Virus record (IMG/VR): IMGVR_UViG_3300009134_000002
Location: 1 to 41,591 of that record
Direction: 5' to 3' (one strand)
Origin: a virus
Length of the DNA stretch: 41,591 nt
A program made the position numbers and the translations under genes. Shown here one piece after another: positions 1,336 through 11,523 of this stretch. The stretch's first letter is position 1, and each line of letters starts with the position of its first letter. The notes below the pieces were generated by a model. That model worked only from the letters and a program-made list of their open reading frames with translations. It did not search any database and had not been told where the DNA came from.

Positions 1336-2109
1336 ATGGGACTTAAAAAGCAGTCCGGTAATATGTATTCATTTGTGACGCATACCTGGAATCCGATCAA
1401 AGGCAGGTGCGCTCATGGTTGTGATTATTGTTACATGCTTGAAATCTGGAAACGAATGAAGGATGCCACTTTAAGGTTAGACGAGAAGGAATTAAAAACT
1501 AACCTGGGCAGTGGCAATTTTATTTTTATCGGATCCGGAACAGATATGTGGGCAAACAATGTGCCGGGCGAATGGCTGGCAGAGGTTATGGGAGTTTGTT
1601 ATCAATACCCGGATAATACCTATTTATTCCAGAGTAAAAATCCGGCGCGATTTGTAACGGCAAATAGCTGGTTTCCCGATAACATGATTCTGGGAACTAC
1701 GATTGAATCCAACCGGGTCTATCATCAATCCTCTCCGATGCCCTTTAAACGTGTGGTTGAAATGGAGAAACTGGCAAATGCAGGATTTAAAACGATGGTA
1801 ACCATAGAATCCAACAGGGTCTATCATCAATCCTCTCCGATGCCCTTTGAACGTGTGGTTGAAATGGAGAAACTGGCAAATGCAGGATTTAAAACGATGT
1901 TGACAATTGAACCGATTATGGATTTTTGCACGAAAATATTAATTAAATATATTAAAATGTGTCAGCCACTGTGGGTGAATATTGGGGCAGATTCGAAGGG
2001 GCATAATTTACCGGAGCCGTCTTCTGAAAAAATTCAATTATTGATTTACGCCTTAAAAATTTTTACCGAAGTGAAATTGAAGAAAAACCTAAAAAGATTG
2101 ATGGTATAG
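1336..2109 (+). CDS. Gp37/Gp68-type (DUF5131) radical SAM protein with internal duplication
   Basis: The product is 257 residues. The N-terminus has WNPIKGRCAHGCDYCY, the CX3CX2C iron-sulfur motif (Cys25, Cys29, Cys32) of radical SAM enzymes. THTWNP and the later TIESNR and TIEP strings match the phage Gp37/Gp68 (DUF5131) family, whose substrate is unknown. Residues 122-155 are repeated as 156-189 with few changes, so one beta-alpha unit of the barrel is present twice. The C-terminus ends in a short basic tail directly at an attC-like half site, so the natural end may have been replaced when the cassette array joined. The family call is firm; activity is uncertain because of the duplication. 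Confidence 0.8.
   Translation: MGLKKQSGNMYSFVTHTWNPIKGRCAHGCDYCYMLEIWKRMKDATLRLDEKELKTNLGSGNFIFIGSGTDMWANNVPGEWLAEVMGVCYQYPDNTYLFQSKNPARFVTANSWFPDNMILGTTIESNRVYHQSSPMPFKRVVEMEKLANAGFKTMVTIESNRVYHQSSPMPFERVVEMEKLANAGFKTMLTIEPIMDFCTKILIKYIKMCQPLWVNIGADSKGHNLPEPSSEKIQLLIYALKIFTEVKLKKNLKRLMV
1699..1902 (+). repeat. tandem 102-bp in-frame duplication
   Basis: Two adjacent 102-bp units, 1699-1800 and 1801-1902, differ at six positions and keep the reading frame. Each encodes 34 residues starting TIESNRVYHQSSP. The differences include CGG/AGG, AAA/GAA and GTA/TTG. The divergence suggests the duplication is not a fresh assembly artefact. Confidence 0.9.
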
Positions 2110-2130
2110 TCAGCTTGATGCGATGGTTAT
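2109..2130 (+). repeat. attC-like right half site (left edge of array 1)
   Basis: GTCAGCTTGATGCGATG followed by GTTAT matches the L'-R' half of the full site at 3210-3263 (TTTGATGCGATGTTAT). No matching R''-L'' half is present upstream; the radical SAM stop codon lies right against it. It marks where the cassette array meets phage sequence. Confidence 0.6.
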
Positions 2131-2150
2131 ATTTAAGGAGAAGCGAAAAG

Positions 2151-2438
2151 ATGAAACGTAAATTTGGAGAGGAATTTATTACAGAGTTGGAGATAAAAGG
2201 CAAAATTTGTAGTTATTGTGCGGAGGATAGCGCCTATATTGAATGGCTGGAAACTAAGTTGATGGAAGCGCGAGAAGCGACAAGTAATAGCAAGTCTGCT
2301 ATTGATGAATCAAAAAAGTTTTACGGAAAAGTTATGAAATTAGACATTGCAAAAAACACAATAACGATTGAATCAAGCCGAGATATAAAGGGACTTAGAA
2401 TTTTAGATACTTTTGAAATGAATTTATTGGGAATTTAA
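2151..2438 (+). CDS. cassette-borne hypothetical protein
   Basis: The start at ATG 2151 is chosen because AAGGAG lies 11 bp upstream; the ORF extends further up only through the attC half site. The product is 95 residues with a CSYC pair near residue 20, a helical middle and a beta-rich end (NTITIESSRDIKGLRILDTF). No family is recognised. The cassette runs 2126-2457, and its ends are inverted (GTTATATTT and AAATATAAC). The 20 bp after the stop nearly match those after the gene at 2958, suggesting past recombination between cassette ends. Confidence 0.6.
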   Translation: MKRKFGEEFITELEIKGKICSYCAEDSAYIEWLETKLMEAREATSNSKSAIDESKKFYGKVMKLDIAKNTITIESSRDIKGLRILDTFEMNLLGI

Positions 2439-2452
2439 GGCTTGCGTAAAAT

Positions 2453-2483
2453 ATAACAGGCGAAACTAAGCCGCCGAGAAAGG
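2453..2483 (+). repeat. attC-like left half site, truncated
   Basis: ATAAC is followed by AGGCGAAACTAAGCCGCCGAG, like the R''-L'' half of an attC. No R' box (GTTRN) follows before the next gene, so the right half seems to have been lost. Confidence 0.4.
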
Positions 2484-2491
2484 AAAAATAA

Positions 2492-2788
2492 ATGAGCGAC
2501 AAAAGAATGAATTTAGAAAGAGCCGACAGCCCTTCGGTCGGCTTGAGTGAATTGTTAGTAGCCGTAAAGGAATTGACAATAGAAGGATATTGCAAACTAA
2601 GTAAAAAGCGATACTATAAAATACTTGAATTATTAGAACGGGCTGAACGGATTGCACAACAATGCACGACAGACGAGTCAAAATGTGATACAATGGCTGA
2701 CTACGGGAAATGCAGTTATGGACATGCTAAACATTTGGAAACAAGGATTAGCCCAGCTTACAGTAAACCCTGGAACCCAGGCTACTAA
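2492..2788 (+). CDS. cassette-borne hypothetical protein
   Basis: This gene encodes 98 residues from ATG 2492, with AAAGGA ten bases upstream. It has a predicted helical region (residues 16-60, ELLVAVKELTIEGY, RYYKILELLERAERIAQQC) and a C-terminus with two Cys and Tyr-Pro-Gly residues. The stop TAA lies inside the CTAAC box of the following repeat, as expected for an integron cassette. An ORF in another frame at 2652-2942 overlaps the end and runs through the palindromic element, and I regard that one as a shadow. Function unknown. Confidence 0.5.
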   Translation: MSDKRMNLERADSPSVGLSELLVAVKELTIEGYCKLSKKRYYKILELLERAERIAQQCTTDESKCDTMADYGKCSYGHAKHLETRISPAYSKPWNPGY

Positions 2789-2941
2789 CGGCGTGTTTCA
2801 GTGGAGCCGTAGGCTTCCATTGCAAACTATGGTTGTTCCTCACTGGCTGATTTTGGGAGCAAGAATGAAGTTTAGGTTAGCAGAGTTTATCATAAATGAA
2901 ACACGCCGTTGCCCGTTACACGGGCTTTGGCAGATTTTTTA
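2785..2941 (+). repeat. long palindromic attC-like element, copy 1
   Basis: CTAAC opens a 124-bp element (2787-2910) whose ends are perfect 14-bp inverted repeats, AACGGCGTGTTTCA and its complement ending ...CCGTT. Some 30 bp beyond it (including the GCCCG/CGGGC hairpin) are also shared with copy 2 at 3652-3810. The 124-bp cores differ by one base. The placement (stop codon in the left box, next cassette after GTTGC) fits an attC of the long, Vibrio-repeat type. Its outer arms lack the usual unpaired spacer, so a MITE-like element is an alternative. Confidence 0.7.
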
Positions 2942-2957
2942 GAATTTTGGAGGTAGT

Positions 2958-3206
2958 ATGAAATTGATTGATACAATGAATGAATATATAAAAAAAACAG
3001 GTAATTTTCCAGGCAATGAATATTGGGCAAAAAAATGGGAGAAGGCATATAACGCTGACTTATCGAAAAACAACAGCAAGCCGATAGATTATAAAACAGC
3101 ATTTAATGAATTGGCTACGTGTATAAGATTTGGAATGACAGTAGAAAATACCAAAAAACAATTTGATGAGATTTTAATTAAACATAAGATTAAAAGGCTT
3201 GCGTGA
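2958..3206 (+). CDS. cassette-borne hypothetical protein
   Basis: Eighty-two residues, starting at ATG 2958 behind a strong TTGGAGG. The protein is basic and mostly helical. It has one Cys and the motif KPIDYKTAFNELATCIRFGM, which may be a small helical domain. I do not recognise a family. The stop lies four bases before the ATAAC box of the attC at 3210. The start of this cassette (GTTGCCCG...TTTTTTAGAAT) is the inverted match of the end of the cassette at 3775-4012 rather than of its own end, so it looks recombined. Confidence 0.6.
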   Translation: MKLIDTMNEYIKKTGNFPGNEYWAKKWEKAYNADLSKNNSKPIDYKTAFNELATCIRFGMTVENTKKQFDEILIKHKIKRLA

Positions 3207-3209
3207 AAT

Positions 3210-3263
3210 ATAACGGACTTGCATAAGGCGTGAGTCCTTACCATCGGTTTGATGCGATGTTAT
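3210..3263 (+). repeat. attC-like recombination site
   Basis: R'' is ATAAC (3210-3214) and R' is GTTAT (3259-3263). Inside, L'' GCATAA pairs with L' TTGATGC leaving one extra G, the extrahelical base expected in attC. A GGACT/AGTCC stem forms the central part. Length is 54 bp, within the normal attC range. Confidence 0.75.
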
Positions 3264-3396
3264 GCTGAAGGGTGCATGCCCCAGGCGGCGGCATGAATAA
3301 TTAGTACCGCCAACCCAGACCTGATTAGATTACGTACGGAATATAGTCGGGTGAAAACGTTCGAAACGGGGAAATAACGCAGCCCTCCAGTATAAC
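3259..3396 (+). other. non-coding cassette with structured sequence
   Basis: The unit from GTTATGCTGAAGGG to CCCTCCAGTATAAC has no convincing ORF on the plus strand. Its two ends are inverted matches at 12 of 14 positions. Inside are a CATGCC/GGCATG hairpin and a GGCGG/CCGCC stem. A reverse-strand ORF crosses it but also covers the neighbouring gene and looks spurious. It may encode a structured RNA or carry a promoter; neither is shown. Confidence 0.5.
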
Positions 3397-3418
3397 GGTG
3401 AGCGTGAGTTGCGCTCGC
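3392..3418 (+). repeat. attC-like left half site, truncated
   Basis: ATAAC is followed by GGTGAGCG and a GAGCG/CGCTC hairpin. No R' box follows before the next gene, so the site appears incomplete. Confidence 0.4.
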
Positions 3419-3439
3419 AATAAAAATAAAGGAATAATT

Positions 3440-3655
3440 ATGACAAAAAAAGAAGAAAACACCGTACTCCTTAGCGTCAACTCGACGCAATTGTTAAATG
3501 CCAATAAGATACGAAGGGATGAACGTAAAAGAATTTGGGATGAACTAAATAAACATATAAAAACTGGTCATTTAAAAGGAAATGGCTTAGATAAAATGGC
3601 AGAAAGAAATGGATTAATTTTAGCAACTAACATAATTTTTAAATTAGGCATTTAA
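3440..3655 (+). CDS. cassette-borne hypothetical protein
   Basis: I start this gene at ATG 3440 (AAAGGA eight bases upstream) rather than 42 bp earlier inside the attC-like hairpin. The product is 71 residues, charged and helical (KIRRDERKRIWDELNKHIK), with a hydrophobic end (LILATNIIFKLGI). No family is recognised. The stop TAA lies within the TTAAC box of the second copy of the long palindromic element, as in a classical cassette. Confidence 0.55.
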   Translation: MTKKEENTVLLSVNSTQLLNANKIRRDERKRIWDELNKHIKTGHLKGNGLDKMAERNGLILATNIIFKLGI

Positions 3656-3810
3656 CGGCGTGTTTCAGTGGAGCTGTAGGCTTCCATTGCAAACTATGGT
3701 TGTTCCTCACTGGCTGATTTTGGGAGCAAGAATGAAGTTTAGGTTAGCAGAGTTTATCATAAATGAAACACGCCGTTGCCCGCTACACGGGCTTTGGCAG
3801 ATTGTTTAGA
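3652..3810 (+). repeat. long palindromic attC-like element, copy 2
   Basis: Copy 2 of the 124-bp palindromic element (core 3654-3777) with perfect 14-bp inverted ends. It differs from copy 1 at one base in the core and at two bases in the following 33-bp shared cassette-start sequence. Near identity of attC sites within one array is typical of chromosomal integrons. Confidence 0.7.
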
Positions 3811-3821
3811 ATGGAGATAAT

Positions 3822-4004
3822 ATGACGGTTTTGATAAAATTTTCCACTTCAGATTTAAACTATTTTCTGGAATTAGGTGCCTTTACAGAAAGATGGTGTA
3901 AAAAAAACGGATACAGGAAACCAATAATTAAGAATAATTAAAAAGATTATGAAATAATTACGGAACCCAATGAGGGCGGTGATTCTAAAAATCTGCCAGT
4001 GTAG
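3822..4004 (+). pseudogene. cassette ORF interrupted by an in-frame stop
   Basis: ATG 3822 follows TGGAGA and opens a 39-residue ORF (MTVLIKFSTSDLNYFLEL...) ending at TAA 3939. In the same frame, a further 20 sense codons (KDYEIITEPNEGGDSKNLPV) follow up to a TAG at 4002, just before the cassette end. The extension reads like protein, so the TAA is probably a nonsense mutation. The original product would be about 60 residues. Readthrough or a genuine 39-residue protein are alternatives. The cassette 3775-4012 has long imperfect inverted ends (GTTGCCC...TTTAGAAT with ATTCTAAA...GGGCAAC). Confidence 0.5.
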
Positions 4005-4007
4005 GGG

Positions 4008-4071
4008 GCAACGTCGAGCATAACCGGCAAAAAACCGGACGTTTTTTAGTCAGGTTGATGCGTATTGTTAA
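4008..4071 (+). repeat. attC-like recombination site
   Basis: The left box is GCAAC and the right box GTTAA (4067-4071). L'' GCATAACC and L' GGTTGATGC pair perfectly except for one extra G, the textbook attC feature. A CCGG/CCGG and A-run/T-run stem fills the centre. It is nearly identical to the site at 4745-4810. Confidence 0.8.
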
Positions 4072-4091
4072 GTGGCTGGCGAAAGGAGACT

Positions 4092-4748
4092 ATGGCAGTA
4101 CATTTTGGGGATTGCAGAGAATTAGCAAAGGATATAATTCAAAATGAAAGTGTTGATTTGATATTTACAGATCCACCATATTCAAAGGGATATCATCCAC
4201 TTTACAAATGGCTTGCAGAAGAAGCGGAAAGGGTGTTAAAACCAACTGGTTTTTTAATTTCTTTTGTTGGTCCATATTGGAAAGATGTAATTATGGGATA
4301 TTTTGAAAATCATCTGCAATATTTTTATGATTTTATACTTAAGCACAATGGCAATACTTCAATGTTGTGGCCACGTAAAATAATATCAGGGTACAAATCA
4401 ATTTTGTGTTATCATAAAAAAGGTGTAAAACCACTTCCGAATACAAATGTACTTGGAATTTGGGATGGAACTGGCGGAGATAAACGCTACCACAAATGGG
4501 GGCAAGATGAAACCACGAGCAGATATTACATTGACTGTTTTTCAAAACCAGGTGATCTTGTGGTAGATTATTTTCTTGGTACCGGTACGAATGGTTTAGT
4601 TTGCAAAAAGTTAAAACGAGAATTTAAGGGGATTGAAATAGAAAAAGATGTTTATGAATTGGCTGTGCAACGAATTAAGGAAGGCAGGATGCCGACGGAC
4701 ATAGAACAGTTAAAACTAAAATTAAGCGATGAAATGCCAGCCACTTAA
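4092..4748 (+). CDS. DNA adenine/cytosine-N4-type methyltransferase (cassette-borne)
   Basis: Product of 218 residues; the start at ATG 4092 has AAAGGAG upstream. Motif IV DPPY is at residues 27-30 and the SAM-binding motif I (DYFLGTGTNG) follows at about 159-168. This order is that of beta-class amino-methyltransferases (N6-adenine or N4-cytosine). DPPY favours N6-adenine. No restriction enzyme is next to it, so a role in protecting phage DNA from host restriction is likely (inference). The cassette ends GTTAAGTGGCTGGC and GCCAGCCACTTAAC are perfect 14-bp inverted repeats, and the stop TAA lies in R''. Confidence 0.8.
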   Translation: MAVHFGDCRELAKDIIQNESVDLIFTDPPYSKGYHPLYKWLAEEAERVLKPTGFLISFVGPYWKDVIMGYFENHLQYFYDFILKHNGNTSMLWPRKIISGYKSILCYHKKGVKPLPNTNVLGIWDGTGGDKRYHKWGQDETTSRYYIDCFSKPGDLVVDYFLGTGTNGLVCKKLKREFKGIEIEKDVYELAVQRIKEGRMPTDIEQLKLKLSDEMPAT

Positions 4749-4810
4749 CGGCGAGCATAACCGGCAAAAAACCAGGACGTTTTTTAGTCCGAGTTGATAC
4801 AAATGGTTAA
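4745..4810 (+). repeat. attC-like recombination site
   Basis: R'' TTAAC (4745-4749, containing the methyltransferase stop) and R' GTTAA (4806-4810) bracket a 66-bp palindrome. L'' GCATAAC pairs with L' GTTGATAC with an extra G and one mismatch. The centre has an AAAAAAC/GTTTTTT stem. It closely matches the site at 4008-4071. Confidence 0.8.
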
Positions 4811-4839
4811 AATACGAGCAAATAAAGAGGGTTAGTAGA

Positions 4840-5055
4840 ATGTCTGAAATAAAAAAACTAATTGAGAAAGTCGCCCGTAAAATGGATTTGCCAGATTGGG
4901 TAAATGATAAATTGAAAGAGAAAAATATAAAATTGTGTGATGAATGTAAGTTGATGATAAAAGAAAAAACGTGGGTTGAAATAAATAATATATATCTTCA
5001 TTGTGAATGTTTTTATAAAAATTATACACCCTTAGAAAAACAACAGGAGGCATAA
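4840..5055 (+). CDS. small Cys-rich, probably zinc-binding protein
   Basis: Seventy-one residues starting at ATG 4840, with an AGAGGGTTAGT ribosome site. A helical N-terminal half (KKLIEKVARKMDLPDWV) is followed by LCDEC and HCEC, two CX2C-like or CXC pairs spaced about 20 residues apart. They could hold one zinc ion. No family is named. It shares a cassette (4806-5239) with the next gene. Confidence 0.6.
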   Translation: MSEIKKLIEKVARKMDLPDWVNDKLKEKNIKLCDECKLMIKEKTWVEINNIYLHCECFYKNYTPLEKQQEA

Positions 5056-5056
5056 A

Positions 5057-5221
5057 ATGAGTTGGGGAGAAAGAAGTTGTAAATATTCTGGAGAATGTCC
5101 AATTGTGGAAGAATGTAATATGGTTACTTGTAATGTTAATTGCAGAAAATATGAATGGGATGGAAAAACAAGCCCAGATTCTCAAAAAAGCGAACAGGAT
5201 GTGAGCGAAAGTAAAGGGTAA
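5057..5221 (+). CDS. small Cys-rich protein
   Basis: This 54-residue ORF starts at ATG 5057, directly after the previous stop, with AGGAGG nine bases upstream. Five Cys lie in its first half (CKYSGECPIVEECNMVTCNV, then NC), and the tail is polar and Ser/Lys/Asp-rich. Such a spacing suggests metal binding or disulfides, but no family is recognised. The stop lies in a GTAAC string ten bases before the cassette end. Confidence 0.55.
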   Translation: MSWGERSCKYSGECPIVEECNMVTCNVNCRKYEWDGKTSPDSQKSEQDVSESKG

Positions 5222-5229
5222 CAAGGCGA

Positions 5230-5239
5230 GTATTTTAAC
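5230..5239 (+). repeat. right end of last cassette of array 1
   Basis: GTATTTTAAC is the exact inverted repeat of the start of the same cassette, GTTAAAATAC at 4806-4815. After it the sequence does not continue as an attC, so the array ends here with only the R'' box kept. Confidence 0.5.
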
Positions 5240-5298
5240 ATAGTATTAGACGGATTGAAGATAAAAAGCCTTATATATCAATAACTTTGGAGAATGTA

Positions 5299-5568
5299 AT
5301 GACACAGTTGTCACTACAAAGTCATGACAAAAACCAACATATTCAATTCAGGATTGAAGATGATTTGAAATATGTATGGCAGTTATTCTGTAAAAAGCAC
5401 CGCTATAATCAAAGTGAATTGTTTAGAAAATGGATGATCGCTTTTATGAAAAAACATGGGGATATCCGGGAAATTAAAGAATCTGTATTTAACCCGGATT
5501 TAATTGATGATATTGAGGATATGCCGTTGGAAATAAAAACAGTGTCTAAAATTGAGGTATTATTATAA
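5299..5568 (+). CDS. hypothetical early protein, possible ribbon-helix-helix-like
   Basis: Start at ATG 5299 behind TTGGAG; product 89 residues. The segment HIQFRIEDDLKYVWQLFCKK, followed by a helix (QSELFRKWMIAFMKK), resembles the beta-strand plus two helices of small ribbon-helix-helix DNA-binding proteins. The C-terminus is acidic. That fold call is a guess from pattern only. It is the first phage-type gene after the cassette array and overlaps the next start as TAATG. Confidence 0.6.
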   Translation: MTQLSLQSHDKNQHIQFRIEDDLKYVWQLFCKKHRYNQSELFRKWMIAFMKKHGDIREIKESVFNPDLIDDIEDMPLEIKTVSKIEVLL

Positions 5569-5765
5569 TGGATATTAAGGACCTAAAAAAGCTAGATACG
5601 GCGGGGTTTATTATTATTCGACCTCATATTAACGATTATCTTATTGAGCGCCTAAATCCGAAAACCGGAAAATGGGAAGATTTTGAAACGGATTTTAAGG
5701 ATAATATTGCGATGGTTAACAGGCTCGATCAGTTATTAAAAAACAGCAAGTTTATTCAGTTATAA
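5568..5765 (+). CDS. hypothetical small early protein
   Basis: Sixty-five residues, ATG in a TAATG overlap with the gene before. It has two beta-type stretches (GFIIIRPHINDYLIERLNPKTGKW), then acidic and helical parts. No family is recognised. Tight coupling on both sides puts it in the early operon. Confidence 0.6.
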   Translation: MDIKDLKKLDTAGFIIIRPHINDYLIERLNPKTGKWEDFETDFKDNIAMVNRLDQLLKNSKFIQL

Positions 5766-6119
5766 ATGAAGGTAAATATGAGCAAGTTAATTGAAAATCC
5801 GAATGCCAGGCAAAGGGTTTTACTTAAATTAATCGAGGCTAAAACTAAAGGAATGGCTTATTTTGCTCACAGGGAACGGATCCCTATGGGTTGGGTGCCT
5901 TTGCATATATTATGTCAGCCTGGCGTCGGTGGGCTGGCAGGTGACGTCCGTTTACGAGAGCTGCGGCGTGACCCCTACAATCTACCCATATTATGGCAAT
6001 TTTTTAAAACCAGTGACGGTAAATCCACCAATACAACTATCTATTTTTTGATGTGTAATCCGGATAAAATCGATATTGAAACGTGTTCACTAACTGCGGA
6101 CCTGCAGGAGGCTATCTAG
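5766..6119 (+). CDS. hypothetical early protein, possible winged helix
   Basis: Product of 117 residues if ATG 5766 is used. ATG 5778 has a better placed GAAGG and is as likely. The core (GWVPLHILCQPGVGGLAGDVRLRELRRD) resembles the helix-turn-helix plus wing arrangement of small winged-helix domains in phage replication regions. That is a pattern-based guess. It directly precedes the replication-type gene. Confidence 0.6.
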   Translation: MKVNMSKLIENPNARQRVLLKLIEAKTKGMAYFAHRERIPMGWVPLHILCQPGVGGLAGDVRLRELRRDPYNLPILWQFFKTSDGKSTNTTIYFLMCNPDKIDIETCSLTADLQEAI

Positions 6120-7034
6120 GTGGAATGGTTTAAACATAGTACAAGATCTCATGATGATCCGGATATTTCTGAGGCGATGGATGAATTTGGTGATAAGGCT
6201 TATTCAATTTTTTTCATGGTTTTGGAAATTTACGGGGAAGAATTTAATCGATTAAAAAATGGAAATTTAACGCTATCTAAAAAAACATGGATGAGGAAAC
6301 TGCGTAAGAAATGGAAACTAATTGAGAACATTCTCAGTTTCTACGCAGAATGTAATCGTTTGGAGTTCACTTGTAATGAGAAAGTGGCGACTATTAAAAT
6401 CCCAAAATTCATTGAAATATCAAGCAATTGGACAGTTCGGATTAATCCATCACCTACAGAGGCACCTACAGAGGTACCTACCGCTAAAGAAGAAGAATCA
6501 GAAGAAGAACTATATAATAATATATCTTCTTCTAATAGTGTATATAATAAAGAAGCTAAAAAATCATCTAATAATGGCAAACTGACTGATAATGATTTTA
6601 AAATTAATTTTTCTAAAGGCAATGAGGTTTTAGCACTAATTAAAAAGATTGTTAATAAACCCTATAGTGACGGAGACGGCACCAAGATTAAGGGGTTGTT
6701 AAAAAACATGAACCCGGTTATTATTAAATCGATTATTGGGATTGCACACAAAAGCAAAAAACCTATCGGTTCATATCTCTGGTTTATTAAGTCTTTTTCA
6801 AATCCGCAAATCAGTATTCCGTTTAAGGCATCGGGTTCGGCTGCCTGGCTGCATAATTGCGGCACAAAGGACAGGGAAATACGGATAAGCGCTGACCGGA
6901 TTTTTAAGTGTATGGGTTGCGGGGAAATGTGGTATTCGGTTAAGGAGTTTGAACAAAAAACAGGCAATAAAATATTAACCAAAACACAGTTGAAAGAAAA
7001 TAATACGGCTGATGTTGCTGCTGCTTATTCGTAA
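6120..7034 (+). CDS. replication-type protein (Lin1244/Lin1753-like, DUF4373 N-terminus)
   Basis: GTG at 6120 follows AGGAGG and gives 304 residues. The N-terminal 100 residues (WFKHSTRSHDDPDISEAMDE, then GDKAYSIFFMVLEIYG) match the Lin1244/Lin1753-type domain (DUF4373) of phage replication-region proteins. A Thr/Pro/Glu linker (TEAPTEVPT, then acidic and Ser/Asn-rich residues) leads to a C-terminal domain with a possible zinc site (CGTKD...CMGCGEMW). It probably binds the phage origin or loads helicase; no helicase is seen in the window, so it likely recruits a host one. Confidence 0.7.
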   Translation: MEWFKHSTRSHDDPDISEAMDEFGDKAYSIFFMVLEIYGEEFNRLKNGNLTLSKKTWMRKLRKKWKLIENILSFYAECNRLEFTCNEKVATIKIPKFIEISSNWTVRINPSPTEAPTEVPTAKEEESEEELYNNISSSNSVYNKEAKKSSNNGKLTDNDFKINFSKGNEVLALIKKIVNKPYSDGDGTKIKGLLKNMNPVIIKSIIGIAHKSKKPIGSYLWFIKSFSNPQISIPFKASGSAAWLHNCGTKDREIRISADRIFKCMGCGEMWYSVKEFEQKTGNKILTKTQLKENNTADVAAAYS

Positions 7035-7036
7035 AA

Positions 7037-7528
7037 ATGCAGACAGAAAACCGGGAAAATATTAATATGCCTAATTTTGATTGGGAAACACCAAAAGATT
7101 TTTTTAATACACTAAATGAAGAATTTAACTTTGATATTGATGTAGCTGCCACAAAGGAGAATGCTAAATTGCCGGTTTATTTTACTCCAGAAATAAATGG
7201 ACTTGGACAATCGTGGAAGGGCGTTTGTTGGATGAACCCACCCTATAACAGAGATATTGGATTGTGGATGAAAAAGGCCTATGAGGAATCTCAAAAAGGT
7301 AATAGGATTGTAGCGTTGATTCAGGGTAGATCTACGGATACTATATGGTGGCATAATTATGTAATGAAATCTGATGAAATTAGATTTATTAAAAATAGAT
7401 TACATTTTAGTTTAAATGGAAACTTTGCAAGGGCAAATATTTCAAATGTAATTATCGTTTTTAGACCCTATTGCATAGGACCGCCACATGTATCATCAAT
7501 TGATGTTTATGGGAAAAAACTATATTAA
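7037..7528 (+). CDS. phage Dam-like N6-adenine DNA methyltransferase
   Basis: The protein has 163 residues. WETPKDFFNTLNEEFNFDID near the N-terminus and the catalytic NPPY near residue 69 match the phage DNA N-6-adenine-methyltransferase family (PF05869 type, as in phage T1 Dam). It would methylate adenine in phage DNA, protecting it from restriction or setting timing of expression. ATG 7037 is used, though ATG 7067 is an alternative. It follows the replication gene by two bases. Confidence 0.85.
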   Translation: MQTENRENINMPNFDWETPKDFFNTLNEEFNFDIDVAATKENAKLPVYFTPEINGLGQSWKGVCWMNPPYNRDIGLWMKKAYEESQKGNRIVALIQGRSTDTIWWHNYVMKSDEIRFIKNRLHFSLNGNFARANISNVIIVFRPYCIGPPHVSSIDVYGKKLY

Positions 7529-7599
7529 TAAATAACAAGAGGCCGGTTTTCGGTCTCCCTATAATTAAGCACGTAAAACGTGCCAAGCCGGAGGTCTAA

Positions 7600-8295
7600 A
7601 TGGATTCTTTAAAACATGATCTAATGAAGGTCATTAAAAAACACAGACCGACCAGGAAAGAATTCGAAAATTCACTGCGGGAATGTCGCCGCGACAAAAT
7701 AATCGGGGAAATTATTGGTCCGTCTGAGAAAATACCGCCAAGGAAATTGCCTAAATTACCGTCTATGCAGCAGGTACAAAAATTACTAGATACCATGGAA
7801 ACGGATGGCAATATAAAATTTCGCCTAATGGCAAAGATGTTCTTATATTCAGGATTGCGAAATGCGGAGCTGTCCCATATTAAAACATCGGATATTAATC
7901 TGTCAGATAACAGGATATTCATAAACCAGGGCAAAGGCAGTAAGGATCGTTATATGATCATTTTTAAGGATTTTCGTGATTTGCTGGTGATGTACATGAA
8001 CAATAATCTGCGTAATATTTACCTGTTTGAAAATCGATATTGCAAACACTATTCAGACAGATATGTGCGGAAGGTTTTTCAGGATTATTGCAAGAAGGCA
8101 GACCTTCCCCGGATTCATCCTCACATGTTTAGACATATATTTATTACATTTTTAAGGAAAAAAGGTTGGAAAATTGAAGATATTATGTTATTATCCGGTC
8201 ATTCGGATCCTAAAAGTGTGAAGTTTTACGATCAAATGGCGCTTCCGGATATTGAGGAAAAATTTCAGAATGATATGCGGGGGATGGGAGTATAA
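7600..8295 (+). CDS. short tyrosine recombinase
   Basis: ATG 7600 follows GGAGG; 231 residues. All catalytic residues are visible: Arg87 (SGLRNAEL), Lys115 (GKGSKDR), His175 and Arg178 (HMFRH), His201 (SGHSD) and Tyr210. Only about 75 residues precede the catalytic domain, less than the usual core-binding domain, so the N-terminus is reduced. I see no extra segment like that of integron integrases. The stop codon sits in an ATAAC box at the start of the second cassette array. It may be the phage integrase or excision partner, or help move cassettes; the last is speculation. Confidence 0.85.
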   Translation: MDSLKHDLMKVIKKHRPTRKEFENSLRECRRDKIIGEIIGPSEKIPPRKLPKLPSMQQVQKLLDTMETDGNIKFRLMAKMFLYSGLRNAELSHIKTSDINLSDNRIFINQGKGSKDRYMIIFKDFRDLLVMYMNNNLRNIYLFENRYCKHYSDRYVRKVFQDYCKKADLPRIHPHMFRHIFITFLRKKGWKIEDIMLLSGHSDPKSVKFYDQMALPDIEEKFQNDMRGMGV

Positions 8296-8312
8296 CGGCA
8301 AACATAAGGAGT
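8292..8312 (+). repeat. attC-like left half site
   Basis: ATAACGGCAAACATAAGGAG has the R'' box and an L''-like ACATAAGG, but no R' follows. It contains the stop codon of the recombinase gene, and its AAGGAG also serves as ribosome site for the next gene. Confidence 0.45.
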
Positions 8313-8320
8313 GCGACAAA

Positions 8321-8695
8321 ATGAAAACAAAATCTAAAATCACCACAGCCTTAAGCATCTGCTTAATGTTATTGTTAGTTGCGGTTGGATGCAGCAAAGA
8401 CGTAGAATATACAAAAGGCTTTCCGTTTTGGAAATATGACTGGAAGCAAGGCGAATTAATGGCAACATACAAAGGAATTGGCGGCGGATATGAATGGAAA
8501 TATTTACGATACTTATCCATTCCAGATACAGTTTTAAATTTGAATACTAATGAAAAATATGCCGCACCATTTCAAACATTAGAACGAAAATTCATAACTG
8601 ATAAATTTAGCGGTATAGTTTATGATTATAGCACAATAAAAGTAAATGATGATATATTATATTTTCCAGGCGTTGAAAAAGAATGGAGCAACTAA
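8321..8695 (+). CDS. cassette-borne lipoprotein
   Basis: Product of 124 residues from ATG 8321. A basic start, a hydrophobic stretch (ALSICLMLLLVAVG) and Cys24 in VAVGC form a type II signal peptide and lipobox. The mature part (SKDVEYTKGFPFWKYDWKQG...) is rich in aromatic residues and likely beta. It would sit as a lipid-anchored protein in the cell envelope. No family is recognised. The stop TAA lies in the CTAAC box of the attC at 8692. Confidence 0.7.
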   Translation: MKTKSKITTALSICLMLLLVAVGCSKDVEYTKGFPFWKYDWKQGELMATYKGIGGGYEWKYLRYLSIPDTVLNLNTNEKYAAPFQTLERKFITDKFSGIVYDYSTIKVNDDILYFPGVEKEWSN

Positions 8696-8776
8696 CGGTT
8701 GTGGCTAAGGCGAGCCGATAACCAAATAATCATAAATCATGCCACCGTTTCGGCTTCGCTTTAAGCCGATGGTTAG
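8692..8776 (+). repeat. attC-like recombination site
   Basis: R'' CTAAC (8692-8696) and R' GTTAG (8772-8776) bracket 85 bp. GGCTAAGGC on the left faces GCTTTAAGCC on the right, and a TCGGCTT/AAGCCGA stem lies near the right arm. The stop codon of the lipoprotein gene is in R''. Confidence 0.7.
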
Positions 8777-8793
8777 GTGGCGATTGGAGCAAA

Positions 8794-9033
8794 TTGGAAT
8801 TCAAAACAGGACAAACTTATCATATGCTTATTAGTGGAGCAAGATCATATAAAATTCACATACGTGCAATTGTAGATGATAATATGATTGTTTATAAATG
8901 GTTTGGACGACATCAACAATGGTGGCATTATGAAATTGAATGTGCAGAGATACTTGAAATAAAAATAGAAAAATATAGTAAATACAATAAAGCCAACTTA
9001 ACGGCTATTGCTAAACAGACGAAAGGAGCGTAG
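8794..9033 (+). CDS. cassette-borne hypothetical protein
   Basis: The start is TTG 8794 with TTGGAG five bases before it; 79 residues. The sequence (GQTYHMLISGARSYKIHIRA, then DDNMIVYKWFGRHQQWWHYE) suggests a small beta-barrel-like domain with many aromatics. The last residues run past an internal CCAACTTAACGGC that resembles a lost cassette end, so the C-terminus may be an extension into foreign sequence. Function unknown. Confidence 0.55.
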   Translation: MEFKTGQTYHMLISGARSYKIHIRAIVDDNMIVYKWFGRHQQWWHYEIECAEILEIKIEKYSKYNKANLTAIAKQTKGA

Positions 9034-9036
9034 CGA

Positions 9037-9228
9037 ATGAGTTCAGATTTAAGCAAATTGTTAAACTGTTATTGTAATACAAAACCAAAACTTGATAAAG
9101 CGCCAGACCGTGAATTGTATAGTTATGTTTGCCCTAATTGTAGCATGTGTTGTGATGAATATTTTGATAACAAAGAAACAGCTAAAGCAAATTGGAATGA
9201 CTGGATTAAAAACCCAAAATCAGTTTAA
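9037..9228 (+). CDS. Lar-like (restriction alleviation) zinc protein
   Basis: Sixty-three residues; ATG 9037 with AAAGGAG upstream. The layout CYCNTKPKL...YVCPNCSMCCDEYFDNKETAKANWNDW matches the Lar family pattern: a first Cys pair, a second CXXC, then a short helix ending in A..NWN.W. Lar proteins counter host type I restriction by promoting modification. The assignment is by pattern only. The stop lies in the TTAAC box of the next attC. Confidence 0.65.
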   Translation: MSSDLSKLLNCYCNTKPKLDKAPDRELYSYVCPNCSMCCDEYFDNKETAKANWNDWIKNPKSV

Positions 9229-9282
9229 CGGTTGGTGATAACGCGCTGACCGCAGGGAAGTCGAAGTTAATTACATGGTTAT
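9225..9282 (+). repeat. attC-like recombination site
   Basis: R'' TTAAC (9225-9229, containing the stop of the Lar-like gene) and R' GTTAT (9278-9282) enclose 58 bp. GTGATAAC on the left faces GTTAATTAC on the right with one extra base. Confidence 0.65.
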
Positions 9283-9428
9283 ATTTATTAAGGGCAAAAC
9301 ATATAAAATGTGTTGACTATTTAACCGATAGTATTGGTGCGGGTTCGATCCCCGTCGCCCTGTGCCGAGATTGGTTATCTCAAATGGTACGGGGTGCAAG
9401 TGGCTACCTTGCCCTTAATAAATATAAC
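9278..9428 (+). ncRNA. non-coding cassette with tRNA-like fold
   Basis: The unit begins GTTATATTTATTAAGGGCAA and ends in its exact 20-bp reverse complement. It has no credible ORF. From 9290 to 9362 (73 nt, tRNA length) lie a T-arm (GCGGG, TTCGATC, CCCGT), an anticodon-type arm (ACTAT, 7-nt loop TTAACCG, ATAGT) and 5 bp of an acceptor stem (AGGGC/GCCCT). The D-arm is degenerate and lacks GG. Downstream come GAGAT/ATCTC and GGTA/TACC hairpins. It may be a tRNA-like RNA. Alternatively the 3' part may be a phage attachment core copied from a host tRNA gene, which would explain the poor 5' half. Confidence 0.5.
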
Positions 9429-9476
9429 GGCGAAGTTAACTGGTTGCGTAGCAATCCATGTTCAACGGATTGTTAT
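9424..9476 (+). repeat. attC-like recombination site
   Basis: This is the cleanest attC in the window. It has R'' ATAAC, a 6-nt spacer, L'' GTTAACTGG, a TTGC/GCAA tip hairpin, L' CCATGTTCAAC (two extra bases), a 5-nt spacer and R' GTTAT. Length 53 bp. Confidence 0.8.
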
Positions 9477-9584
9477 ACTTACCTGCATTGCCGAGCGTGA
9501 GTAGAATTATGATAGTAAGACTAAACATAGGAGTTAAGTTCGCCATTATACCGCCTGCGGTATATAGCCGACTTTTTTGAGATA
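9477..9584 (+). other. spacer with palindrome and possible mini-ORF
   Basis: A perfect TATACCGC/GCGGTATA inverted repeat lies at 9547-9564, followed by a T6 run 8 bp later, which may be a weak terminator. A 23-codon ORF (9509-9580) has no good ribosome site. The expected inverted end of a cassette starting GTTATACTTACC was not found, so the right edge of array 2 is unclear. Confidence 0.3.
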
Positions 9585-10336: not shown

Positions 10337-10538
10337 AAAAGAGTGGTTCGAAAAATATTATACTCCGGAGAATAAAAAAATAATAGATATTATTCGATTG
10401 GTAAAATATGGAGAAATGAATATAGAGATAAGTAATAGAAAACCAGTAAATATTTATCCTTCGGTTAAAATCAGACTACAAAGGGACAAAACAAATGCAA
10501 CAAATTTTACAGAGCTTCAAGTTATATCTGAAGAATGA
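10329..10538 (+). CDS. hypothetical protein
   Basis: I choose GTG 10329 (AAAGGA eight bases upstream) rather than TTG 30 bp earlier. The product is 69 residues: a charged helix (TEKEWFEKYYTPENKKIIDI) then short strands. Its end overlaps the recombinase start by 44 bp, so the two are probably co-translated. Function unknown; its position before an integrase could suit a directionality factor, but nothing in the sequence proves it. Confidence 0.5.
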   Translation: MTEKEWFEKYYTPENKKIIDIIRLVKYGEMNIEISNRKPVNIYPSVKIRLQRDKTNATNFTELQVISEE

Positions 10539-11523
10539 CAGAGGATTTTCAGAGGAAACGATTGTTAAATATCTCGGAAATCTCCATATACTTTTTAAAA
10601 AAATGAAGATATATGATATATCACAATTGAAATCGATCGTGATTAATAAGCGCTTACTGGATGATTTTTGGAGTGATTTTGCCGGTGGGAAAAAGATCGC
10701 CTCAGATTCAACCCGGGCAAACTATATGGCCACTCTAAAATCCTTCTTCAAATTCTGTTATTTAAGCGAATATATTACCGAGGATATATCACAGAAAATC
10801 GTAATGCCCAAAAAGAGATTGCTGTTTTTAGAGGGGGGAATGAATCATAAAGAACAAAAGGTCTTACGGGATTACATTGCCAGTCATTTAAAAACGGAAA
10901 AAGATTTGAGGGATGCTGCCTTGATGATGTTTTTATGGTCCACTGCAACCCGTGTAAGTGAAGCGTTAAATCTAAGATGTCACAAGGAATCATATATTTA
11001 TTTTCACAGTGAAACCGTCCGGAGTGGTGATTTCCATTTGGATGAAGGTAATATATATGTCCACATTATGGGTAAGGATAAACGCGATAGAGTCGTTGCG
11101 GTAAGCAACGATGCGTTGCATTATTTAAATTTGTACCTAGATAGCAGAAAAGTTAAAAATGAGATTCTATTCCATAATGTCAGGAATAATAGATCTGAAA
11201 CATTAAAATTAAGCCGGAATGCAGCAGGTGTAATTATAGAAAAGATATTAAAAATATGCGATATAAGGAAACCAAAAAATTTACGAACACATATATTTAG
11301 GCATACTGCTATTAATACATGGCTAGAAATGGGTTATACACGTGAAGAAATAATTACAATTACTGGTCACGCTGAGCTGGGAGGTTTGGATCCTTATGTG
11401 TTTAGAAACAAAAGACTTACTCTTCCATTTGCCCACGAAGGTAAATCAGTGGTGGATATAACCAACTCAGATCTAAAACAAATAGATAATATAAATAAAC
11501 TCAGGCACTCACCACAGTTTTAA
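10495..11523 (+). CDS. tyrosine recombinase / phage integrase
   Basis: 342 residues. An N-terminal SAM-like core-binding domain (FKLYLKNDRGFSEETIVKYL) is followed by the catalytic domain with Arg153 (ATRVSEAL), Lys196 (GKDKRDR), His266 and Arg269 (THIFRH), His292 (TGHAEL) and Tyr301. The full domain set fits an integrase or Xer-like enzyme. An insertion around residues 162-182 (HKESYIYFHSETVRSGD) sits between the Arg motif and the beta-hairpin, whereas the integron integrase insert lies elsewhere. The 400-bp AT-rich stretch after it could hold attP (inference). Confidence 0.85.
   Translation: MQQILQSFKLYLKNDRGFSEETIVKYLGNLHILFKKMKIYDISQLKSIVINKRLLDDFWSDFAGGKKIASDSTRANYMATLKSFFKFCYLSEYITEDISQKIVMPKKRLLFLEGGMNHKEQKVLRDYIASHLKTEKDLRDAALMMFLWSTATRVSEALNLRCHKESYIYFHSETVRSGDFHLDEGNIYVHIMGKDKRDRVVAVSNDALHYLNLYLDSRKVKNEILFHNVRNNRSETLKLSRNAAGVIIEKILKICDIRKPKNLRTHIFRHTAINTWLEMGYTREEIITITGHAELGGLDPYVFRNKRLTLPFAHEGKSVVDITNSDLKQIDNINKLRHSPQF

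Follow-up and report, generated by a model that had tools for sequence, protein, structure and literature searches.

Two integron-like cassette arrays in an uncultivated phage genome carry genes that run against their attC sites

Small rightward genes separated by palindromic, attC-like sites in a phage genome raise the question of whether they are integron cassettes and, if so, in which direction those cassettes are built. The genome is IMGVR_UViG_3300009134_000002, a 41.6-kb virus record of IMG/VR with a GC content of 38%, analysed here as one window of 41,591 nucleotides (nt). A preliminary description had seen in it two cassette arrays of the kind found without an integron integrase (CALINs). 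We consider it likely that the window holds two phage CALINs made of canonical attC sites and reversed cassettes, which an integron integrase (IntI) of the host cell would move in trans and which would belong to a phage-specific pool.

The attC sites in the window are real. To avoid circularity, the covariance model R1 was trained only on bacterial IntI-linked sites, 37 diverse attC sites chosen by structure alone from arrays adjoining integron integrases (TIGR02249) in bacterial genomes, the source genomes belonging to the class of a Vibrio and to the phyla that hold a Bacteroidales and a Planctomycetaceae genome. Run on the entire window with its filters disabled, R1 gave nine matches (E = 1.7e-5 to 0.013; next best, E = 1), all on the minus strand and confined to 2783-4812 or 8293-9478. 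A structural rule together with cassette closure added three sites (2451-2560 and 3390-3499, both with long loops, and 9223-9284) to make 12, and in the array region nine minus-strand sites obeyed the structural rule, against a mean of 0.46 and a maximum of three in 200 dinucleotide shuffles. When folded, all 12 sites pair R'' and R' boxes (RYYYAAC...GTTRRRY) and, on the minus strand, form an L''/L' stem with an extrahelical base in L''; nine of the 12 score with R1 at E<=0.013. They lie in groups of seven and five with no integron integrase nearby, which is what defines a CALIN (at least two close attC sites). Genuine cassettes show closure, in that the bases immediately following G|TT pair with those preceding the R'' core of the same cassette. 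Own ends closed over 10, 3, 5, 10, 4, 14, 9, 4, 9 and 20 nt (mean 8.8) and non-own pairs over a mean of 4.2 nt; in 20,000 re-pairings the observed sum was never attained (permutation p<5e-5). A covariance-model check of the kind that the preliminary description had proposed scored most of its sites, with every match inside the arrays: five of the six complete sites it listed match R1 at E<=0.013, and the sixth (9223-9284) is weak, with R and L boxes paired and cassette ends that close over 9 and 20 nt. Its inventory was otherwise revised, from six complete sites, two long palindromic variants and several half sites to 12 sites, one half site and a lone R'-type box. The two long palindromes that it had set apart as variants contain an ordinary attC at one end of each (2783-2838, 28.5 bits; 3650-3705, 21.8 bits), and the idea of a distinct attC type was dropped. 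The sites and the open reading frames (ORFs; lengths in amino acids, aa) of the cassettes are given below, with covariance-model (CM) scores.

Array 1
2109..2131, minus: truncated attC with just its R''-L'' half (half site at about 2115-2131), where array 1 starts on the left, next to the stop of the DUF5131 gene (from sequence)
2151..2438, plus: cassette ORF, 95 aa, unknown; Shine-Dalgarno AAGGAG
2451..2560, minus: attC, structure scan, closure 10 nt; ORF 2492 begins within its loop
2492..2788, plus: cassette ORF, 98 aa; stop TAA in R' box of next attC
2783..2838, minus: attC, 56 nt, within the first long palindrome; CM 28.5 bits
2958..3206, plus: cassette ORF, 82 aa; Shine-Dalgarno GGAGG
3208..3265, minus: attC; CM 23.1 bits
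3266..3389, no strand: cassette stretch without ORF; no Rfam match
3390..3499, minus: attC, structure scan score 18.0, closure 10 nt; ORF 3440 begins within its loop
3440..3655, plus: cassette ORF, 71 aa; stop TAA in R' box
3650..3705, minus: attC, 56 nt, within the second long palindrome; CM 21.8 bits
4006..4073 (CM match 4010-4069), minus: attC; CM 19.0 bits, closure 14 nt
4092..4748, plus: cassette N6/N4 DNA methyltransferase (PF01555, 8e-21; PHROG 67); stop TAA in R' box
4743..4812, minus: attC; CM 21.2 bits
4840..5221, plus: two small cassette ORFs, 71 and 54 aa
5237..5243, minus: lone R'-type box TTTTAAC, right edge of array 1 (from sequence)
Array 2
8290..8380, minus: attC; CM 21.0 bits, closure 9 nt; ORF 8321 begins within its loop
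8321..8695, plus: cassette ORF, 124 aa, N-terminus lipoprotein-like; stop TAA in R' box
8690..8778 (CM match 8692-8776), minus: attC; CM 21.7 bits
8794..9033, plus: weak cassette ORF, 79 aa
8996..9066, minus: attC; CM 20.2 bits, closure 9 nt; ORF 9037 begins within its loop
9037..9228, plus: cassette ORF, 63 aa, Lar-like by a weak match (PHROG 6795, E=0.014; PF14354, E=0.1); stop TAA in R' box
9223..9284, minus: attC, weak in CM (10.7 bits, E=2); closure 20 nt with the 9422 site
9285..9421, no strand: cassette stretch without ORF
9422..9478, minus: attC, right edge of array 2; CM 30.2 bits

The direction of the arrays can be read from the unpaired base. Among the IntI-linked reference arrays, in which the position of the integrase sets array direction, this base lay in L'' at 72 sites and on the opposite side at six. 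By this marker the attC sites of the window point left, along the minus strand, and the strand calls of the covariance model agree independently. The cassette genes are all on the plus strand, and a Shine-Dalgarno-like AGGA(G) precedes nearly all of their starts. Boundaries placed at the left boxes, which read AA|C on the plus strand, leave the main ORFs intact; the single ORF that crosses a boundary is the weak 8794-9033. ORFs 2492, 3440, 8321 and 9037 each start within the attC loop of their own cassette. At the next boundary, the R' box provides the TAA stop of five cassette ORFs (2788, 3655, 4748, 8695 and 9228), and a recombinase gene takes its stop in the same way from the R' box that bounds array 2 (8295), giving six such stops overall. 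A canonical cassette has its gene oriented with attC and upstream of R'', and 5/5 unambiguous cassettes in the window are antisense. These are real integron cassettes whose genes oppose the direction of their own attC.

The preliminary description had drawn ordinary rightward cassettes. The R and L boxes and the extra base that it reported are there, with the labels swapped, as the extra base marks minus-strand attC; the stop codons that it placed inside R'' are likewise real, in a box that is R'. Boundaries at the right boxes, with G|TT there, were rejected once the extra base had been calibrated on IntI-linked arrays; with the boundaries first proposed, four ORFs would span two cassettes. 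An ordinary sense CALIN from a bacterial chromosome, in which gene then attC both read rightward, would explain why palindromic sites separate rightward genes and why stop codons sit at the left box, and phage TJE1 does have a sense array. We regard this origin as very improbable, since the minus strand carries 9/9 covariance-model matches, the scanned sites have their extra base on the reversed side, and ORFs 2492, 3440, 8321 and 9037 are cut by its boundaries and whole under the reversed ones; the exchange described next also has attC before the gene, not behind it. A stop codon in the box is not specific to antisense cassettes, as it occurs in 14 of 51 bacterial sense and 26 of 60 viral antisense cassettes.

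The reversed unit consists of attC, ribosome site, gene and TAA, with the gene reading away from its own attC, often starting inside it and often borrowing its stop from the R' box at the next boundary. Two viral contigs, labelled L145 and L154 among the loci surveyed below, have 651 bp in common at 94.5% identity and nothing else at the search sensitivity used. The common block starts in an R' box (CTAACGC) and ends in the next R' box (GCATAACGC), taking in the attC before the gene and excluding the attC behind it. We take the cargo ORF to be Mom, from its sequence; the genes of L154 presumably include a large terminase and a primase, and L145 carries a DUF2800-type gene. Judged by its breakpoints, the block is one precise antisense cassette exchange and supports both the unit and its polarity, and it lends support of a comparative kind to IntI recombination at the G|TT of R'. 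The breakpoints also bear on whether attC sites are immobile relics shuffled by homologous or RecT/Bet-type annealing recombination and not by IntI. Such relics would fit with the RecT, Bet, ERF and RecE genes near the arrays of other phages, with the truncated sites at the array edges and with the duplicated attC-plus-leader blocks at 2787-2945 and 3654-3812, but the breakpoints of L145/L154 fall in R' boxes with almost no common sequence outside, and long closure complementarity has been kept. We find this explanation unlikely.

Reversal is common in other phages. Cassette strand was scored by the longest ORF, which had to reach 60 aa and 1.3 times the length of the best ORF on the opposite strand; the viral set came from one attC motif scan of IMG/VR (80 loci, 262 model matches), and its tally excludes redundant contigs and one contig with IntI. 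Bacterial IntI-linked arrays held 51 sense and two antisense cassettes, whereas viral cassettes were 35 sense, 60 antisense and 44 ambiguous, and viral loci were 12 sense, 26 antisense and three ties. The difference is significant by cassette (Fisher, p=7e-14) and by locus (p=9e-5), the latter being the safer value because cassettes within a locus are not independent. RecT, Bet, ERF, RecE, primase, portal and tail proteins are encoded in the flanks of antisense loci, so many of these loci are plainly phage, as judged from a pooled scan and not for each locus. Pooled in the same way, 64 antisense cassette ORFs included one of the Mom family (2e-37), four N6/N4 methyltransferases and one each of Dam, Lar and NinX, along with further phage accessory families; the smaller set of sense cassettes held fewer phage families. 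A second viral motif scan gave no finds, and the window-type attC pattern gave 21 matches in genome contigs, about chance level, with IntI in 0/8 genomes checked. A single attC motif marks about 90 stretches in IMG/VR (L123-L202), so viral cassette arrays look far commoner than the 17 published phage CALINs suggest. Phage cassette arrays (loci L125-L195) often lie near genes for single-stranded DNA annealing and RecE-type recombination. Two near-identical contigs (L144:1317-1656 and L197:1095-1434) diverge abruptly 114 nt upstream of a common attC, at an AAAC-AAT sequence and not a clear R' box.

Phage CALINs have already been published. The examined sections of Qi et al. 2023 (PMC9892861) describe 17 of them with methyltransferase cargo, report that, of six phage attC sites tested with IntI1, five were recombined, one of them from P12002L, call the structure of TJE1 and H101 (there PH101) typical of bacterial arrays, and report no gene polarity relative to attC. 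By our scoring the recombined P12002L site is antisense; this phage has one site, with antisense flanking genes, H101 and MW202573 are antisense, and TJE1 is sense. As far as those sections go, the published arrays resemble the window in having attC without IntI and DNA methyltransferase cargo, and H101, MW202573 and P12002L share its polarity, unlike TJE1; the window has more sites (12, in two arrays) and comes from an uncultivated phage known from sequence alone. Bacterial CALINs and chromosomal integrons are like the window in attC architecture, cassette closure, small unknown ORFs and ORF-less cassettes, but their genes run with attC (51:2), whereas all unambiguous cassettes of the window run against it. 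The polarity of the Treponema "reverse" integrons (PMC3607928) is also unusual, with intI flipped relative to the cassettes; the window flips genes relative to attC and has no intI. Inverted phage polarity had no report in the literature searched, which left most subscription papers and supplements outside, and the combination of recurrent inverted polarity with phage-type antirestriction cargo appears to be undescribed.

Which enzyme would move such cassettes is a separate matter, and the window encodes two tyrosine recombinases:

5299..7528, plus: phage genes between the arrays (Lin1244_N-like protein, Dam methylase)
7600..8295, plus: tyrosine recombinase, 231 aa, without core-binding domain and without IntI insertion; its stop TAA belongs to the R' box that bounds array 2
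10495..11523, plus: second tyrosine recombinase, 342 aa, SAM-like N-terminus, without IntI insertion; likely the phage integrase

In a TIGR02249 search, the 231-aa protein reached 63.8 bits (cut-off 265) and the 342-aa protein was not among the matches listed, and in an alignment with nine IntI proteins neither shows the long insertion that is specific to IntI and precedes the C-terminal catalytic motifs. The preliminary description was right that the record has no integron integrase; this possibly incomplete record, in which attI and the integron promoter Pc were not separately searched, does not amount to a complete integron. That one of the phage recombinases moves the cassettes might be argued from the position of 7600-8295, whose stop codon is formed by the R' box of the last attC in array 2, and from catalytic residues visible in the alignment. 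We hold it to be improbable, because both enzymes are without the IntI-specific insertion that attC requires, a core-binding domain is missing from the 231-aa protein, and both are far under the integron-integrase cut-off. The 7600-8295 gene retains a catalytic domain, lacks the N-terminal core-binding domain, and its end coincides exactly with an edge of array 2.

Several details of the arrays stand by themselves. The R'' of the truncated attC at about 2109-2131 (GTTATATTT) matches the closing box ending at 2457, and GTATTTTAAC at the 5237-5243 box, when reverse-complemented, gives the GTTAAAATAC of the 4806 box. The blocks at 2787-2945 and 3654-3812 are an attC plus about 107 nt of leader common to two cassettes (96% identity) whose genes differ, with homology that begins at the recombination boundary. 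The ends of the ORF-less cassette 9229-9427 are perfectly complementary over 20 nt; it contains a T-arm-like fragment (GGTTCGATCCCC) with weak likeness to the 3' part of tmRNA (E=0.12), and no tRNA or Rfam gene was called in the ORF-less cassettes of the window. The DUF5131 gene (1336-2109) has an internal tandem duplication at 1706-1900 (ESNRVYHQSSPMPF.RVVEMEKLANAGFKTM twice).

The setting is a phage genome, with structural and packaging genes on one contig: the portal protein matches PHROG 145, the major head protein matches PHROG 247, and the terminase is homologous to the packaging protein of a Microcystis phage. Both arrays are contiguous with the portal and major head protein genes in the assembly, as had been proposed, and the evidence supports a temperate-type phage with both arrays in the early region of its genome. 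A terminal repeat was looked for and not found. IMG/VR searches with the recombinase, the Lin1244-like protein and the capsid returned no close relatives, a methyltransferase search returned one relative at 38%, and array-region DNA had no useful similarity to plasmids and phages. Several points weigh against our interpretation. Contiguity of arrays and phage genes is known from a single metagenome assembly; no relative of this phage was found with cassette gain or loss at these loci; comparisons of capsid, portal and terminase assigned no host; closure is symmetric and so is evidence for cassettes, not for polarity; and the viral set was sampled with a single attC motif, left 44 cassettes ambiguous by the ORF rule and is about one-third sense by array.

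Most likely, reversed cassettes would be gained and lost through cleavage at the G|TT of the R' box in a folded, single-stranded attC. The enzyme would most likely be the IntI of the host cell, acting in trans on the attC bottom strand, which here is the phage coding strand, with the phage supplying no IntI. The reversed build implies that expression would come from the rightward transcription of the phage and not from an integron Pc. Since insertion of attC into attC keeps attC polarity, an array of this polarity would express only incoming cassettes that are themselves reversed. The outcome would be a phage-specific pool of small genes, including antirestriction methyltransferases and probably Lar-like and Mom-like genes. 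We speculate that the polarity preference may arise because the non-template strand, the recombinogenic one in these arrays, becomes exposed during transcription.

Reversal may separate the cassette pools of phages and bacteria. The suggestion that such a phage is a vehicle for cassette spread needs the caveat that antisense cassettes at a bacterial attI would oppose Pc; being silent behind that promoter, they would, if reversal is systematic, restrict how freely cassettes pass between phages and chromosomal integrons. That phages in general keep an inverted, antirestriction-rich cassette pool of their own, moved by host integron integrases and unreadable from the bacterial Pc, is a tentative idea that we put at somewhat less than even. 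Annotation pipelines that assume gene-then-attC order will misplace cassette boundaries in such phages. Reversal also yields a prediction on the recombinogenic strand of phage attC: in arrays like these it would be the coding (non-template) one, open to exposure as single-stranded DNA through transcription. If reversal proves systematic, phages would run a separate cassette economy on bacterial integron machinery.

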